DNA from: Opitutaceae bacterium
Lineage (GTDB): Bacteria; Verrucomicrobiota; Verrucomicrobiia; Opitutales; Opitutaceae
Direction: 5' to 3'
Assembly (NCBI GenBank): GCA_014879845.1
Contig: JACSRI010000214.1
Location: 1-57,409, forward strand
Length of the DNA stretch: 57,409 nt
In this document: one piece after another, positions 4,271 to 10,293 of the stretch
How positions within the stretch are numbered: position 1 is the first letter of the stretch
Layout: every line of letters begins with the position of its first letter
Notes under the pieces: model-generated
The model's database searches: none
What the model was told of the DNA's origin: nothing
The model's input: only the letters and a program-made list of their open reading frames with translations
Made by a program: the position numbers and the translations under genes

Positions 4271-4879
4271 ATGAGCACACCTTCTGACAACCTCTTTCCG
4301 ACCGACCACCTGCTGCGCTCCCGCGCGGAGCGCGAGGTGTTGCTTCGGCAGCGGGCCGTCGTCGTCTGGCTGTGTGGCCTTTCGGGATCGGGCAAGACGA
4401 CACTGGCCAATGCCCTCGACCGCCGGCTCGCCGCGGCGGGCTTCGCCTCGGCCGTACTCGATGGCGACAATGTCCGGAACGGCCTCAACCGCGGGCTGGG
4501 GTTTTCCGATGACGATCGTCGCGAAAACATCCGCCGCGTGGCCGAGGTTTCGAGGCTCTTCGTGCAGTCGGGCCTGATCGTGATCAATTCCTTCATTACG
4601 CCGCGCCACGAGTTGCGCGACCTCGCCCGCGAGATCATCGGGGCGGGCGACCTGCTCGAGGTCCATGTGGAGGCGTCGTTCGAGACTTGCGCACGACGCG
4701 ACCCGAAGGGCCTCTACGCCAAGGCGGGTGCCGGCGGGGTGGCATCGTTCACCGGCCGCGACTCCGCTTTCGAGCCGCCGACCCGCTCCGACCTCGTGCT
4801 CCACACCGAGCGCGAGTCGCCCACCGAAAGCCTCGAGCGCCTGTGGGCGCTGGTTCATCCGCGCGTGGTGCGCGCCTGA
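4271..4879 (+). CDS. cysC: Adenylylsulfate kinase (APS kinase)
   Basis: Phosphorylates adenosine 5'-phosphosulfate to PAPS with ATP (EC 2.7.1.25) in the cytoplasm, last step of sulfate activation. The 202-aa protein has the P-loop GLSGSGKTTLA at residues 36-46, then DGDNVRNGLNRGLGFSDDDR (APS-binding region), FITPRHELRDLAREI and the lid region DPKGLYAKA. Length matches stand-alone CysC. It is followed after 15 bases by cysD and then cysN, so the operon gives both ATP sulfurylase subunits and the kinase. CysC is a separate gene here rather than fused to CysN. The leader before the ATG is CTCTCGACGCCGCCC, without a Shine-Dalgarno. Confidence 0.96.
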   Translation: MSTPSDNLFPTDHLLRSRAEREVLLRQRAVVVWLCGLSGSGKTTLANALDRRLAAAGFASAVLDGDNVRNGLNRGLGFSDDDRRENIRRVAEVSRLFVQSGLIVINSFITPRHELRDLAREIIGAGDLLEVHVEASFETCARRDPKGLYAKAGAGGVASFTGRDSAFEPPTRSDLVLHTERESPTESLERLWALVHPRVVRA

Positions 4880-4894
4880 TCTTCCCCCTCCGAC

Positions 4895-5800
4895 ATGAGT
4901 CAATACAACCTCAGCCACCTCGATCAGCTCGAGGCCGAGTCGATCTTCGTCATGCGCGAGGTCGCGGCCCAGTTCGAAAAAGCCGCGCTTCTGTTTTCCG
5001 GCGGCAAGGACTCGATCGTCCTCGTGCGCCTCGCGCAGAAGGCGTTTCACCCGGCGAAGATTCCGTTCACGCTCCTGCACGTCGACACCGGTCACAACTT
5101 TCCGGAGACGATCGAGTTTCGCGACTTCCTCGTGAACAAGGTCGGGGCCCGCCTCGTCGTGCGCCTCGTGCAGGACTCGATCGACCAGGGCCGCTGCGTG
5201 GAGGAGAAGGGCATCAACGCCAGCCGCAACACGCTGCAGACCGTGACGCTGCTCGACGCGCTCGCGGAGTTCCAGTTCGACGTCGCCATCGGCGGCGCGC
5301 GTCGTGACGAGGAGAAGGCCCGCGCCAAGGAGCGCTTCTTCTCGCACCGCGATGAGTTCGGCCAGTGGGACCCGAAGAACCAGCGCCCGGAACTGTGGAA
5401 CCTCTTCAACGGCCGAAAGGCCCACGGCGAGCATTTCCGCGTCTTCCCGCTCTCCAACTGGACGGAGATGGACGTGTGGCAGTACATCCAGCGCGAGAGG
5501 CTCGACATCCCGAGCATCTATTTCGCGCACGAGCGCGAGGTCTTTGATCGCAACGGCACGATCTACGCGGCCTCGCCATTCATGCAGCGCCTCCCCGAGG
5601 AGAAGGTCGAGAAGCGCATCGTGCGGTTTCGCACCGTCGGTGACATGACCTGTACTGGCGCGGTGGATTCGCCGGCCGCCACCCTCGACGAGATCATCGC
5701 CGAGGTCGCCGCCGCCCGCAAGACCGAGCGCGGCACCCGCGCCGACGACCGCCGCTCCGAGACCGCGATGGAAGACCGCAAGAAAGCGGGCTATTTCTGA
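4895..5800 (+). CDS. cysD: Sulfate adenylyltransferase subunit 2
   Basis: Small catalytic subunit of ATP sulfurylase (EC 2.7.7.4), which makes APS from ATP and sulfate. The 301-aa protein contains the PP-loop motif SGGKDS at residues 35-40 and the family blocks HVDTGHNFPETIEFRD, GGARRDEEKARAKER and FPLSNWTEMDVWQYI. It ends with the characteristic KKAGYF tail. It forms a heterodimer with CysN encoded 50 bases downstream. The ATG at 4895 is preceded by CTTCCCCCTCCGAC, a pyrimidine-rich leader with no Shine-Dalgarno. Confidence 0.97.
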   Translation: MSQYNLSHLDQLEAESIFVMREVAAQFEKAALLFSGGKDSIVLVRLAQKAFHPAKIPFTLLHVDTGHNFPETIEFRDFLVNKVGARLVVRLVQDSIDQGRCVEEKGINASRNTLQTVTLLDALAEFQFDVAIGGARRDEEKARAKERFFSHRDEFGQWDPKNQRPELWNLFNGRKAHGEHFRVFPLSNWTEMDVWQYIQRERLDIPSIYFAHEREVFDRNGTIYAASPFMQRLPEEKVEKRIVRFRTVGDMTCTGAVDSPAATLDEIIAEVAAARKTERGTRADDRRSETAMEDRKKAGYF

Positions 5801-5850
5801 CCACCGACCGCGTCCTTCCCACCTTTCACCATCCCTGACTTCTCTTTTCC

Positions 5851-7092
5851 ATGGATCTGTTGCGATTCACGACGGCGGGCAGCGTTGACGACGGCAAGAG
5901 CACGCTCATCGGGCGCCTCCTCTACGACTCGAAGGCGATCTTCGAGGACCAACTCGACGCGATCGAGCGGGTCAGCAACCAGCGCGGCGCCGGTTATGTC
6001 GACCTCTCACTCCTGACCGACGGACTGCGTGCCGAGCGCGAGCAGGGCATCACGATCGACGTGGCCTACCGCTACTTCGCCACGCCGCGGCGCAAGTTCA
6101 TCATCGCCGACACGCCCGGCCACACGCAGTACACGCGCAACATGGTGACGGGCGCCTCCACGGCCAACCTCGCGATCATTCTCGTCGACGCGCGCAAGGG
6201 CGTGATCGAGCAGACGCGACGGCACTCGTTCATCGCCTCGCTCCTGCGCATCCAGCACATCATCGTGTGCGTGAACAAAATGGACCTCGTCGGCTACGAC
6301 GAGGCGGTGTTCAATAAGATCGTCGCCGACTACAGCGAGTTCGCCTCCCGCCTCGAGGTCTCGGACATCAAGTTCATCCCGATCAGCGCGCTGCTCGGGG
6401 ACAACGTCGTCGACAAGTCCACGAACATGCCGTGGTACGAGGGCGCCTCGCTGCTCTATACGCTTGAGACGGTCTACATCGGCAGCGACAGCAACCACGT
6501 CGACCCGCGCTTTCCCGTGCAGTACGTGATCCGTCCGCACACGGCGGAGCATCACGATTTTCGCGGCTTCGCGGGCCGCGTCGCCGGCGGCGTGTTCAAG
6601 CCGGGCGACGAGGTCGTCGCTCTCCCCAGCGGCTTCACGACGAAGATCAAGGCCATCCACACGTTCGAGGGTGAGGTGCAGGAGGCGTTCTTCCCGATGT
6701 CGGTGACGATGACACTCGAGAACGAGATCGACATCAGCCGCGGCGACATGATCGCCAAGCCGAACAACGCGCCGGTCGCGAGCCAGGACCTGGAGGCGAT
6801 GATCTGCTGGTTCCACGAACAGAAACTTCGTCCGAACGGCCGCTACATCATCCGGCAGACGACCCGCGAGGCGAAGTGCCTGGTCAAGGCGATCCGCTAC
6901 AAGGTCGACATCAACACGCTCCACAAGACGGAGAACGACCTTGAGATCGGCATGAACGACATCGCGCGCATCCAGATCCGCACGACGTCGCCGATCCTGC
7001 ACGACCCTTACCGCCGCAATCGCCACACCGGAAGCATCATCCTGGTCGACGAGTTCACGAACAACACGGTTGCCGCGGGCATGATCCTGTAG
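5851..7092 (+). CDS. cysN: Sulfate adenylyltransferase subunit 1 (GTPase)
   Basis: Large regulatory subunit of ATP sulfurylase, an EF-Tu-like GTPase whose GTP hydrolysis drives APS formation by CysD. The 413-aa protein shows G1 GSVDDGKST (residues 10-18), G2 in the segment ending EQGITIDVAYRYF, G3 DTPGHTQYTRNM and G4 NKMD, followed by two beta-barrel domains. There is no C-terminal APS-kinase domain; that activity is supplied by cysC upstream. The leader TTCTCTTTTCC immediately before the ATG is pyrimidine-rich. The operon seems to end here, because palindromic repeats follow directly and no sulfite-reduction genes are nearby. Confidence 0.97.
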   Translation: MDLLRFTTAGSVDDGKSTLIGRLLYDSKAIFEDQLDAIERVSNQRGAGYVDLSLLTDGLRAEREQGITIDVAYRYFATPRRKFIIADTPGHTQYTRNMVTGASTANLAIILVDARKGVIEQTRRHSFIASLLRIQHIIVCVNKMDLVGYDEAVFNKIVADYSEFASRLEVSDIKFIPISALLGDNVVDKSTNMPWYEGASLLYTLETVYIGSDSNHVDPRFPVQYVIRPHTAEHHDFRGFAGRVAGGVFKPGDEVVALPSGFTTKIKAIHTFEGEVQEAFFPMSVTMTLENEIDISRGDMIAKPNNAPVASQDLEAMICWFHEQKLRPNGRYIIRQTTREAKCLVKAIRYKVDINTLHKTENDLEIGMNDIARIQIRTTSPILHDPYRRNRHTGSIILVDEFTNNTVAAGMIL

Positions 7093-7175: not shown

Positions 7176-8120
7176 ATTGCCATTCATTCCGATCCTCTGA
7201 GCTTCGAGTCCCGACATCTCACTCCCGTCTCCGGCCGGCCTTCCACCGCGGGCATCTGGCTCGAAGCGGCGCGGCCGAAGACACTGCCAGCCGCAGTCAT
7301 CCCCGTGCTCGTCGGCTCGGCCCTGGCCTTTCGCGCCGGCGCCTTCGACTGGCGACCCGCGTCGGTCTGCCTGGTCTTCGCCTTGCTGGTGCAGATCGGC
7401 ACCAACTTCGCCAACGACTACTCCGACTTCCTCAAGGGGGCCGACCGGGAGGACCGGCAGGGACCGCGGCGCGCGGTGGCCTCGGGGCTCGTCTCCGCGC
7501 GGACGATGGCGATCGCCACCGGGGTCACCTTCGGCGCGGCCTTTCTCGCCGGTCTCTCGCTTGTCCTCTGGGGCGGGTGGGTGCTGCTGCCGATTGGAAT
7601 CCTGAGCCTGCTCTTCGGCTGGGCCTACACGGCGGGACCGTATCCGCTCGCCTATCACGGGCTCGGCGACGTGTTCGTGTTTGTCTTCTTCGGCCTGGTT
7701 GCGGTCGGCGGCACGGCCTTCGTGATGACCCACCGAGTCGATGCGTTTGCGTTGCTCGCCGCGACGCCGGTCGGGCTCCTCGCGGTCAATATTCTCGTCG
7801 TGAACAACTATCGCGACATGGAGACCGACGCGCGCGCGGGAAAGCGCACGGCGGTGGTGCGGTTTGGCCGGGGTGTGGCGCGATTTCAGTACATGCTCTC
7901 ATTCGCGGCGGCCTTCGGCGTGCCGACGGTACTCGCGCTCGTGCGCCAGAGCCCGGTGCTCGCGCTTCCGCTCCTGGCCGTGCCGCTCGCGCTGCCGCTC
8001 GTGCGCGAGTTGGCGATGTCGAGCGGGGGGGCGGCGCTCAACGCGCTGCTCGGGAAGACCGCGCGCGCGTTGCTCGTGTTCGGCGTGCTCTGGGCTGCGG
8101 CGTTGGCGGTGACACGATAG
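7176..8120 (+). CDS. menA: 1,4-dihydroxy-2-naphthoate polyprenyltransferase (MenA)
   Basis: UbiA-superfamily integral membrane prenyltransferase that attaches the polyprenyl chain in menaquinone synthesis. The Mg-diphosphate motif [15 protein letters not shown] and the second motif [16 protein letters not shown] are present with several hydrophobic segments. The first ATG/GTG/TTG in frame is the GTG at 7305, but that would remove the conserved N-terminal block [16 protein letters not shown], which is clearly coded upstream. In-frame codons back to the stop at 7161 contain no ATG, GTG or TTG. An ATT at 7176 with GAGG five bases upstream, or a CTG at 7197, are the candidate starts; 7176 is used here, giving 314 aa. 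Start confidence is low, product confidence high. Confidence 0.85.
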
Positions 8121-8135: not shown

Positions 8136-8852
8136 TCAGGACGATGGACGCCGCAGCACGAGCGTGCGTGTCGTGCCGCGGAAGAACTCGTAGTCGACGT
8201 CGACGATCTCGCTCACGATGCCGTAGACCAGGAGCGCCTCGCGGACCGGCGCGACGAGGGGCGAGAGTTCGCCGCGCAGATTGACGATCGGGTGCAGGCG
8301 CACCTCGGTCTCAGGCCGCGCTACGCGTGCGAGTTCACGGCAGGCGGCGACGTGGAAGTCGAGGTCGAGCCGGTCGTCGTAGACGAAGAGCAGGTGTCCG
8401 CAGAGCACGAGGTCGAAGGTCCCGGCTCCGAACGGCAGGCTCGGCAGCGCCGCCGACACGTAGCGGCCGACCGCGACACCGGTGTAGTAGTCGGCGAGGA
8501 AGCGCGCGGCTGCGCGGCGCCGGTCGGCCTCGGCCGCCTCGAGCGACGCGAAGGAACGCAGCCGAAACATCTCCGGGCGTGTGCGCATCGTGGCGAACAT
8601 GCGGTTCAGCCCGTCGGTCGCGCGCATGCGCAGGGCGTGCTCGTTGCAGCGGTAGAGCGGGTCGACGGCGGTGACGTCGACACCTGCACACGCCGCCTCG
8701 GCGGCAAACGACGAGGGCCCGGCGCCGACGTCGAGCACGCGCTGACCGATGTGATCGGAGGCGCGGATGCCGAAGAAGACCTGGTACTCGGCGAGACTGC
8801 GTCCAAAGAAGGCGATGTCGGGAACGGGGAGGGAGGTGGTGGTGGAAATCAT
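8136..8852 (-). CDS. Class I SAM-dependent methyltransferase, 238 aa, Trp-free
   Basis: Rossmann-fold methyltransferase of unknown substrate. Motif I is VLDVGAGPSS (about residues 39-48), the following acidic strand is VTAVDPLY, and the motif IV region is FDLVLCGHLLF. ATG 8852 is preferred over a TTG at 8870. The protein contains no tryptophan at all. Upstream on the same strand lie a Trp-rich short ORF and an intrinsic terminator that together resemble an amino-acid attenuator, so expression may rise when charged tRNA-Trp is scarce. The gene is convergent with menA and is separated from lacI by the divergent leader region. The substrate may be a small molecule or lipid; nothing in the sequence decides this. 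Confidence 0.88.
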   Translation of the reverse strand: MISTTTSLPVPDIAFFGRSLAEYQVFFGIRASDHIGQRVLDVGAGPSSFAAEAACAGVDVTAVDPLYRCNEHALRMRATDGLNRMFATMRTRPEMFRLRSFASLEAAEADRRRAAARFLADYYTGVAVGRYVSAALPSLPFGAGTFDLVLCGHLLFVYDDRLDLDFHVAACRELARVARPETEVRLHPIVNLRGELSPLVAPVREALLVYGIVSEIVDVDYEFFRGTTRTLVLRRPSS

Positions 8853-8947: not shown

Positions 8948-8976
8948 AAAAAGGCCCGGTCTCTGGTGACCGGGCC
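8948..8976 (-). terminator. Intrinsic terminator between leader ORF and methyltransferase
   Basis: On the minus strand the arms GGCCCGGTC and GACCGGGCC pair perfectly (plus coordinates 8953-8961 and 8968-8976) around a six-base loop and are followed by five U (8948-8952). It lies about 95 bases upstream of the methyltransferase ATG and about 45 bases after the stop of a Trp-rich leader ORF, i.e. in the position of an attenuator rather than at the end of a gene. Confidence 0.85.
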
Positions 8977-9042
8977 CGATGGGCGACGTGGAGTCGCCGG
9001 GGTGTGCTGATGAGATCAACTCAGCGACACCATCGCCGGGCC
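8973..9042 (-). promoter_or_regulatory. Predicted antiterminator pairing of the attenuator
   Basis: In plus coordinates, 8973-8982 (GGCCCGATGG) is complementary to 9030-9042 (CCATCG, three extra bases, then GGCC), giving ten pairs with a three-base bulge. The 9030-9042 segment lies within the last leader codons just after the Trp triplet, and 8973-8976 is part of the terminator arm, so the two folds exclude each other. A small separate hairpin, GGCGAC/GTCGCC at 8982-8998, lies between them. Folding energies have not been calculated. Confidence 0.5.
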
Positions 9043-9155
9043 TTGCCGTTGTGCCACCACCACGCACCGACATGGCGGGACGTGTTCGTGGGGCTGAGCG
9101 GGCGACGCAGGGACTGTGGCACGAGCGAGGAGATGTCGGACCGCCGGCACGACAT
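9021..9155 (-). CDS. Trp-rich leader peptide, 44 aa (putative attenuator)
   Basis: Short ORF from ATG 9155 to the TGA at 9021-9023. Its last residues are GAWWWHNGKARRWCR, with three consecutive Trp codons (residues 32-34) and a fourth at residue 42, which is a strong composition signal because Trp is the rarest residue. A Shine-Dalgarno-like GAGGAAG stands about eight bases before the ATG on the minus strand. A GTG at 9122 could start a 33-aa version. The ORF is followed by mutually exclusive RNA structures, a perfect terminator, and a Trp-free methyltransferase gene. By analogy to trpL, ribosome stalling at the Trp codons would free the antiterminator. No trp gene lies downstream, which is what makes the arrangement odd. 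Confidence 0.55.
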   Translation of the reverse strand: MSCRRSDISSLVPQSLRRPLSPTNTSRHVGAWWWHNGKARRWCR

Positions 9156-9195
9156 CAAGATCTTCCTCGCACGGCGTGTCCGTCGAGGTTGCGAA

Positions 9196-9279: not shown

Positions 9280-10293
9280 GTGAAGCCCAGCCCTACTATG
9301 GAGGATGTCGCGCGAACCGCCGGCGTCCACCAGACCACTGTCTCTCGAGCCCTGCGCAACGACCGCCGCCTGCCGGAGTCGACGCGCCATCGCATCAAGG
9401 CCATCGCCGATACGATGGGCTACCGACCCAATCCGCTCCTCTCGGCGCTCGGCGCGAACTTGCGCCAGCGGCGCACGGCGGAGTTTTCCGCGACGCTCGC
9501 CTACATCGTGCGTGCCGACGCGCCCAGCGAGCGCCGCCGGGAGCATTTCGCCGGCGCGGGCCAGGCTGCGGGCGCGCAGGGCTACCGCCTCGAGGAGTTC
9601 GTCGTGGGCTCGGCCGGACTGACGCCCGAGCGGCTCAACGACATCCTGCTCACGCGCAACGTCCAGGGTGTGATCATCGGCCCGCTGCCGGAGCCGCGTG
9701 GCACGATCGAGCTGCGGTGGGACGAATTCTGCGCGGTCTCCATCGAGCTCACGCTCACGCAGCCGCTGCTCGACCGGGTCGTTCATGACAACTTCTCCGG
9801 CATGCGCGCGATCATGCAGCAGTGCCGGTCGCGCGGATACCGCCGGCCGGGCCTCGTGCTCACCGAGGCGGGCAACGCCCGGACCGAGGGCCTCAATGTC
9901 GGCGCCTACCTGCTCGAACAGCGCGGCGGCGTCGTTGACGCGCTGGCGCCGCTGCTCGTGGCGGCGTGGTCGCCCGATGTCTTCTCGGCCTGGTTCCGCA
10001 CCGAGCGTCCCGACGTGATCATCACGTCCAACGCGTTGACCGAATCGATCCAGGCGTGGTGTGCCGGCGAGGGCCTCGCGGTCGGCCGCGACTTGGGGTT
10101 CGTCAATGTCAACGCGCTGCCAGAGCAGTCGATTTCCGGCGTGCAGCAGGCGTGGGACTCGATCGGCGCGATCGCGGCACAACTCGTGATCGACAAGATC
10201 AACCGCAACGACCGCGGCGCCCCGGCGCTCTATCGCACGATCCTGACACCCGGCACGTGGTGTGAGGGCACGACGCTGCCGGCTCGTTCTTGA
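9280..10293 (+). CDS. LacI-family transcriptional regulator
   Basis: Sugar-responsive DNA-binding regulator of 337 aa. The N-terminal helix-turn-helix reads MEDVARTAGVHQTTVSRALR, followed by the hinge helix region MGYRPNPLLSALG, then a periplasmic-binding-protein-like effector domain. The GTG at 9280 gives six residues (MKPSPT) before the usual LacI start; an ATG at 9298 is the alternative. It precedes the aldose epimerase, sugar symporter and arabinofuranosidase genes on the same strand and probably controls them, and perhaps the divergent methyltransferase. The inducer is likely a pentose or oligosaccharide, by context only. Confidence 0.92.
   Translation: MKPSPTMEDVARTAGVHQTTVSRALRNDRRLPESTRHRIKAIADTMGYRPNPLLSALGANLRQRRTAEFSATLAYIVRADAPSERRREHFAGAGQAAGAQGYRLEEFVVGSAGLTPERLNDILLTRNVQGVIIGPLPEPRGTIELRWDEFCAVSIELTLTQPLLDRVVHDNFSGMRAIMQQCRSRGYRRPGLVLTEAGNARTEGLNVGAYLLEQRGGVVDALAPLLVAAWSPDVFSAWFRTERPDVIITSNALTESIQAWCAGEGLAVGRDLGFVNVNALPEQSISGVQQAWDSIGAIAAQLVIDKINRNDRGAPALYRTILTPGTWCEGTTLPARS

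Follow-up and report, generated by a model that had tools for sequence, protein, structure and literature searches.

The trp leader of Escherichia coli (trpL), whose peptide ends GWWRTS, carries tandem Trp codons close to the end of the leader, followed by an antiterminator and a terminator that compete for one RNA arm and by a U tract. Excerpts of several reports describe the nearest relatives of this arrangement. In Sinorhizobium meliloti, the Trp-leader attenuator RNA rnTrpL has its 5' end at the trpL start codon (PMC7298713), and RcsR1 is transcribed from the same position (PMC7143759). In Actinobacteria, candidate Trp attenuators with conserved complementary triples in antiterminator and terminator precede trp operons and trpS, and trpS2 lies outside the biosynthetic operon (PMC1262725). 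Leader peptides with an RNA switch are also found in front of methyltransferases in erm-type systems (PMC12121999). According to the cited part of a 2010 survey, no amino acid leader peptides were then known outside Proteobacteria and Actinobacteria, erm leaders apart, and the survey itself went on to report one in Firmicutes (PMC2965389).

The DNA analyzed here (the window) is a 57,409-nucleotide stretch from an Opitutaceae bacterium of the Verrucomicrobiota. On its minus strand, a stand-alone methyltransferase (MTase) gene is preceded by what we consider, at a probability of roughly 85%, to be a trp-type, ribosome-mediated and Trp-responsive attenuator of its transcription, the Trp response being read from the arrangement of the following parts.

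8136 to 8849, minus strand: stand-alone MTase gene, class I SAM-dependent, FFGR-type subfamily, 237 amino acids, no Trp (Pfam, predicted structure)
8948 to 8977, minus strand: intrinsic terminator GGCCCGGUC-ACCAGA-GACCGGGCC, then five U; 10 pairs including an outer G-U (sequence, family pairs)
8973 to 8979, minus strand: antiterminator 3' arm (region 3) UCGGGCC, overlapping the terminator 5' arm (folding, family pair counts)
9036 to 9042, minus strand: antiterminator 5' arm (region 2) GGCCCGG, within the leader open reading frame (ORF) (folding, family pair counts)
9030 to 9032, minus strand: fourth Trp codon, adjoining the antiterminator 5' arm (sequence)
9054 to 9062, minus strand: run of three Trp codons at which the ribosome is predicted to stall (sequence)
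9021 to 9122, minus strand: leader ORF, favored form, GTG start, 33 codons, ending GAWWWHNGKARRWCR, stop UGA at 9023 to 9021 (promoter pattern and sequence)
9021 to 9155, minus strand: leader ORF, long form as first read, ATG start, 44 codons, GAGGA upstream (sequence)
9130 to 9135, minus strand: -10-like box CATCTC; the transcript is expected to start at the leader start codon (promoter pattern)
9153 to 9158, minus strand: -35-like box TTGATG of a recurring promoter pattern (TTGNNN-N17-CATC-N6..9-in-frame start)
8948 to 9072, minus strand: end-to-end match of the covariance model R1 at 44.8 bits, with the window itself among the 27 rows of the model

The tandem Trp codons, the competition of antiterminator and terminator for one arm and the U tract are those of E. 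coli trpL, but the switch in the window would control an MTase rather than trpE, is unrelated in sequence and is probably leaderless in Opitutales. Some MTase attenuators of Alphaproteobacteria match the trpL/rnTrpL RNA of the S. meliloti trpE(G) genes (RcsR1, Rfam RF02552) end to end; this match lies below the curated cut-off, however, the target is again an MTase, and the window itself has no Rfam match at curated cut-offs. With the actinobacterial candidates the locus shares conserved complementary triples and, as at trpS2, a Trp attenuator whose gene is not part of the biosynthetic operon; the actinobacterial targets, however, make or charge Trp, and the one here is an orphan MTase found in other phyla. 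The resemblance to erm-type leaders lies in the leader peptide and RNA switch before a methyltransferase; unlike those, the MTase of the window matches no rRNA methylase family, and the copies described here share Trp codons.

Two mutually exclusive pairings and a perfect 9-bp terminator with a U tract, as the initial annotation had reported, were confirmed in the sequence. Positions 9042 to 9036 can pair with 8979 to 8973, or the terminator hairpin can form, its core being 8976 to 8968 paired with 8961 to 8953 and followed by five U, and the two structures share the terminator 5' arm. The overlap of the 3' part of the leader ORF with the antiterminator segment, also part of that annotation, is likewise present, with region 2 lying inside the ORF. 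Folding of the minus-strand RNA, which the annotation had proposed as a check, gave one structure or the other according to the position of the ribosome: with the ribosome at the third Trp codon and the RNA ending before region 4, the exposed RNA folds as the antiterminator (-36.7 kcal/mol), and with the ribosome at the stop codon it folds as the terminator. When region 4 is included and region 2 is free, the terminator is more stable than the enforced antiterminator (-48.7 versus -44.6 kcal/mol), so antitermination must be kinetic, set by the order of synthesis, as is usual for attenuators.

For this attenuator we infer stalling, a direction of response and a specificity for Trp of the following kind. 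RNA polymerase would start at the promoter and the transcript would probably begin at the leader start codon. With plentiful Trp-tRNA, the ribosome would pass the UGG codons and the antiterminator arm and reach the stop codon; the terminator hairpin would then form and transcription would end before the MTase. With scarce Trp-tRNA, the ribosome would stall at UGG just upstream of the antiterminator arm; this arm would pair with the 5' half of the terminator, and the MTase would be transcribed. An MTase controlled in this way would presumably serve in Trp, or perhaps aromatic amino acid, shortage.

The minus-strand frame from 9155 to 9021 reads MSCRR...GAWWWHNGKARRWCR* and, as first described, has 44 codons when started at ATG 9155, with three adjacent Trp codons. 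The frame, its coordinates and the WWW stand, but the start is probably GTG 9122, giving 33 codons. A promoter pattern recurs upstream of these leaders and takes the form TTGATG (9158 to 9153), 17 nt, CATCTC (9135 to 9130), 7 nt and GTG 9122 in the window; the -35 box of this pattern probably includes ATG 9155, so the shorter form is more likely, and the long form from ATG 9155, with GAGGA ahead of the ATG, is the less likely of the two. The pattern TTGNNN-N17-CATC-N6..9-in-frame start was found at 19 of 30 loci against 0.05 expected in mononucleotide shuffles, a figure that is no independent test because the pattern was derived from those same loci; spacers of 16 to 18 were allowed, and all 19 matching loci have 17. 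Since the pattern sets the start codon at the expected 5' end of the transcript, the leader would be leaderless. Judged by promoter spacing in the sequence, then, the leader is probably both shorter than first read and leaderless. Most Opitutales leaders have no Shine-Dalgarno match, and a scan with the sigma-70 consensus found no site. A gene for a LacI-type regulator (window 9280 to 10293) diverges from the leader and starts about 120 bp from the proposed leader promoter.

The same leader was sought, as the initial annotation had suggested, before orthologous MTases, and it was found in the sampled Opitutaceae genomes. The MTase was detected in 55 of 150 genomes of the family, which are an even sample of a larger group, and in 50 of these 55 a Trp leader or an R1 match lies just upstream. 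Upstream DNA was read for 46 of the 55; the other 9 were counted through a same-strand R1 match directly upstream. Leaders are present at all 30 of the best MTase loci, where the frames were picked by eye with the alignment (that of L017 sits further upstream than the others and was first read in L152), at 5 of 6 further loci, the sixth having an R1 match, and at 5 of the last 10 loci read. The five MTase genomes without a leader comprise three with the divergent VPWGR type (L179, L181, L182), one with an MTase fragment (L177) and one in which the locus lies at a contig end (L175). Orthologues that keep the gene and lack the leader, which would have spoken against the attenuator, were thus largely not found. 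A strict terminator rule found none at 7 of 49 family loci.

At E values of at most 0.05, R1 matched 51 of the 150 genomes, and in 41 of these the match lies immediately upstream of the MTase; the rows used to build the model are bound to match, and several of them are from the 150 genomes. The matches number 58, of which 41 precede an MTase and 17 lie elsewhere. Ten of these 17 were inspected: one (L168) is a trpE leader, and nine are not Trp leaders by eye. An exact pattern, TGGTGGTGGCAYNNNGGNAAR, proved too strict as a marker of the family; it occurs in 2 of 150 genomes, and its second occurrence is out of frame, within a long ORF of unrelated function. Every one of 29 leader tails has at least one Trp (one in 3 tails, two in 9, three in 13 and four in 4), and WW or WWW occurs in 14. 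Where the antiterminator arm is recognizable by eye, a Trp codon stands 3 to 5 codons before it, and in Opitutales leaders the Trp codons are flanked by Arg codons. The earlier expectation of a conserved Trp triplet and conserved stems therefore holds for the alternative stems; the WWW itself varies, with one to four Trp per tail. Two other families of the order also have Trp leaders: L242 has a WWW leader and no terminator under the rule used, and L243 has leader and terminator, but a stop inside its MTase match. In a sample of the phylum, the MTase was present in 32 of 387 genomes, and the VPWGR-type loci read there have no leader, with one doubtful case (L244 of G583) showing a WW frame and no recognized terminator. 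R1 did not match L242, L243 or L244.

Covariation, which had also been proposed as a check, was examined in an alignment (A3) of 27 rows, made of the window and 26 of 43 loci selected for recognizable stems; both stems are conserved, with some covariation. The antiterminator GGCUCGGCG/CGCCGAGCC varies on both sides together, mainly to GGCUUGGCG/CGCCAAGCC. In it, 93.8% of cells are paired, versus 44 to 51% when the arms are slid by one column, and its covariation score is 0.169, compared with 0.104 for shuffles, none of 500 of which reaches the observed value. Sixteen cells are doubly changed, 13 of them in one pair, and these 13 may go back to few events. Double changes affect three pairs, a number reached by 19 of 500 shuffles, and further pair types are not more numerous than in shuffles. 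The terminator is 99.6% paired and has 3 doubly changed pairs, reached by 0 of 500 shuffles.

The MTase is rare in Alphaproteobacteria, where it was found in 7 of 337 genomes of the class and in 8 of 61 of another order, and most other loci from these searches have no leader. All 16 Parvibaculum-type MTase loci carry a Trp leader, an antiterminator and a terminator, in sequence unrelated to those of Opitutales. Their leaders end WWTT, WWTI or WWTA or continue WWTT-x-R-V, with Trp-Arg in L109, and the WWTT end is much like the end of the E. coli trpL peptide. Two more alphaproteobacterial genomes (L227 and L236) have WWTVF and WWTPF leaders, each with a terminator and again unrelated in sequence to those of Opitutales. 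In L126 (2841 to 2933), and also in L232, the MTase leader reads ...REFYWFA*; the run Phe-Tyr-Trp-Phe hints at a response to aromatic amino acids as a group. The 2:3 helix of the alphaproteobacterial copies is 99.1% paired, with covariation no higher than in shuffles, and the 1:2 helix, between the control codons and region 2, is 96.7% paired with 1 doubly changed pair. R1 matched none of the alphaproteobacterial MTase leaders tested. Rfam RcsR1 matched end to end in 4 of 9 alphaproteobacterial sources scanned, plus L097 weakly; the best match (L114, full length, 40.7 bits, E value of 6.7e-5) lies below the curated cut-off of 60 bits, and L099, L102 and L111 have no such match up to an E value of 1. 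The window has no Rfam match at curated cut-offs, and its locus L001 has none up to an E value of 1.

A tree built from 52 MTases requires 4 changes of the leader label, at least 3 of them forced by well supported branches, versus 17.0 in shuffles, with labels set by hand and the doubtful L244 counted as leader bearing. The MTase homologues examined from Nitrospirota, Planctomycetota, Obscuribacterales and a cyanobacterium lack a Trp leader with a terminator behind it within the stretch of up to 400 nt that was read. In four Nitrospirota-type contigs (L118, L120, L123, L124), the leaderless homologue adjoins, by eye, a methyltransferase-like gene or an apparent gene for a sulfur-amino-acid PLP enzyme. 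Two more class I methyltransferase genes stand directly upstream of the Parvibaculum MTase attenuator in L099 (1001 to 2693).

The trpE loci of the same genomes bear on what the attenuator belongs to. In the family, trpE was found in 134 of 150 genomes, and among the best 30 trpE loci only those of G067 and G046 have a Trp leader and terminator; upstream DNA was short at two loci (L190, 91 nt; L192, 295 nt). Two others (L189 and L194) have a WW or WxW frame and no terminator. Six of these best 30 genomes carry the MTase. The trpE loci of 20 more MTase genomes showed no WW/WxW frame and no terminator, upstream DNA again being short at two of the loci (L277, 51 nt; L273, 316 nt). In total, a Trp leader with terminator precedes trpE in 0 of 27 MTase-bearing genomes read, out of 55 and including the window's own trpE, so in this family the attenuator accompanies the MTase and not trpE. 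The five alphaproteobacterial MTase genomes examined similarly have no Trp leader at their 9 trpE/pabB loci; one (L221) has a four-residue WWSR frame with no start and no terminator. The two trpE leaders, GAWWRYSGSEKVTRT and WAWWWHSGSEKATRR, are of the same type as that of the window, and R1, built on MTase leaders, also finds the one of G067 and matches the one of G046. These loci (L186 and L187) encode a divergent type of TrpE, 72% identical between the two genomes and about 40 to 45% identical to others. The attenuator of this TrpE type may be the source of the MTase attenuator, or the reverse.

The MTase starts at ATG 8849. It matches Pfam PF08241 with 32 bits, above the curated cut-off of 21.2, and its predicted structure (pLDDT of 92) matches SAM-dependent MTases, the structure search returning only generic MTase folds, RNA methylases among them. 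No NCBIfam family cut-off was reached, and no relative was found by sequence among solved structures (best E value of 0.19). Assignment as a demethylmenaquinone methyltransferase (UbiE/MenG) was rejected at 12.9 bits for NF001241 versus a cut-off of 327. An erm-type rRNA methylase was rejected as well; three Pfam families were matched up to an E value of 0.001, with no rRNA adenine dimethylase or RNA methylase family among them. The protein had been described as 238 amino acids long and free of Trp: the absence of Trp stands, but the length from ATG 8849 is 237. That absence was not a meaningful clue to regulation, and a low Trp content as an adaptation was rejected, Trp content showing no consistent trend with the presence of a leader. 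The mean Trp content per 100 residues is 0.34 in 13 Opitutales MTases with a leader, 1.17 in 5 alphaproteobacterial MTases with a leader and 0.75 in 14 MTases without one; those behind alphaproteobacterial leaders thus have more Trp per residue than the leaderless ones.

Genomes of this kind have many strong GC-rich hairpins, and the locus might be a plain 3' terminator beside a Trp-rich frame that arose by chance. Such a coincidence is scarcely credible given the upstream frames of the 30 best MTase loci, where 25 loci have an ORF whose last 20 residues include two or more Trp, against 1.6 expected in dinucleotide shuffles, and 16 have one with three or more, against 0.2, although the loci are not independent because they are related. 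The window and 20 MTase neighborhoods, 659,298 strand bases in all, contain 27 perfect-stem terminators. In 7 cases the terminator stands behind an ORF that has WW or WxW towards its end, and each of these belongs to an MTase attenuator; the remaining 20 include MTase terminators whose leaders miss the strict WW/WxW rule. Only slightly less far-fetched is a relic, in which a trp attenuator has lost its own trp gene and has come to lie before the MTase by chance. This possibility was raised in the initial annotation and finds some encouragement in the likeness of two trpE-locus leaders to that of the window, but it is not supported: it is contradicted by the linkage to the MTase in 50 of 55 sampled family genomes and the conserved alternative stems, Trp leaders precede the MTase in Alphaproteobacteria too, and the attenuator goes with the MTase.

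Two further explanations accept a working leader and give it another role. The leader might be a general sensor of slow translation, responding to antibiotics, cold or any stall in the control region, in the manner of erm-type genes or whiB7, with UGG chosen as a rare codon and an MTase that acts on RNA or protects the ribosome. Upstream ORFs that sense translation stress are described in excerpts of two reports (PMC12121999, PMC12218461), erm genes are the best-known MTase genes under leader peptides, and the Arg codons around the Trp codons in Opitutales would suit such a role. What the two phyla share, however, is Trp and not an Arg-rich peptide, as the WWTT, WWTI, WWTA and WWTT-x-R-V ends of the Parvibaculum-type leaders illustrate; the MTase matches no RNA methylase family in Pfam, its fold matches being generic with RNA methylases included; and G067 and G046 have leaders of the same kind before trpE. 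A general sensor is therefore considered unlikely. Alternatively, the terminated leader RNA or the leader peptide could act in trans on trp genes, as rnTrpL and peTrpL of Sinorhizobium do, with the MTase as a passenger. The alphaproteobacterial copies resemble RcsR1, rnTrpL acts in trans, and the trpE loci read in MTase genomes have no Trp leader with terminator of their own, yet the leader RNA sequences differ between the phyla whereas the linked MTase family is the same, and no other neighbor recurs in more than 7 of 20 neighborhoods. A trans-acting product is accordingly judged distinctly improbable. Control of the MTase by a Trp attenuator, the claim from which this analysis began, is supported by the leader, by the conserved stems, by the promoter pattern and by the link of Trp leaders to this MTase family in two phyla.

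The mechanism is the known one of trp attenuation, and the target, the phylum and the repeated recruitment are not reported in the literature searched; no Trp attenuator before this MTase was found in open-licence literature searched by title and start of abstract. With this finding, Verrucomicrobiota would join the groups that have amino acid leader peptides. Few labels that a bacterium can give a gene are as specific as a Trp attenuator, and the occurrence of the same orphan MTase family under unrelated Trp attenuators in two phyla ties the MTase to Trp shortage and makes its role testable. There is perhaps an even chance that the MTase is an unrecognized part of Trp or aromatic amino acid homeostasis, of such use when Trp is short that Verrucomicrobiota and Alphaproteobacteria each placed it under a Trp attenuator independently. 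A more speculative and improbable proposal is that the MTase modifies tRNA-Trp or UGG decoding, which would close a feedback loop through its own UGG-rich leader.

The genes around the MTase are not conserved; besides the MTase, none recurs in more than 7 of 20 neighborhoods under crude gene calls. A link to menaquinone through the convergent neighbor menA was rejected, the UbiE/MenG cut-offs being missed and the neighbors not conserved. In the window, menA (7305 to 8120) follows a likely sulfate assimilation cluster (4271 to 7092) with genes for an APS kinase, a PAPS reductase-domain protein and an elongation-factor-like GTPase.
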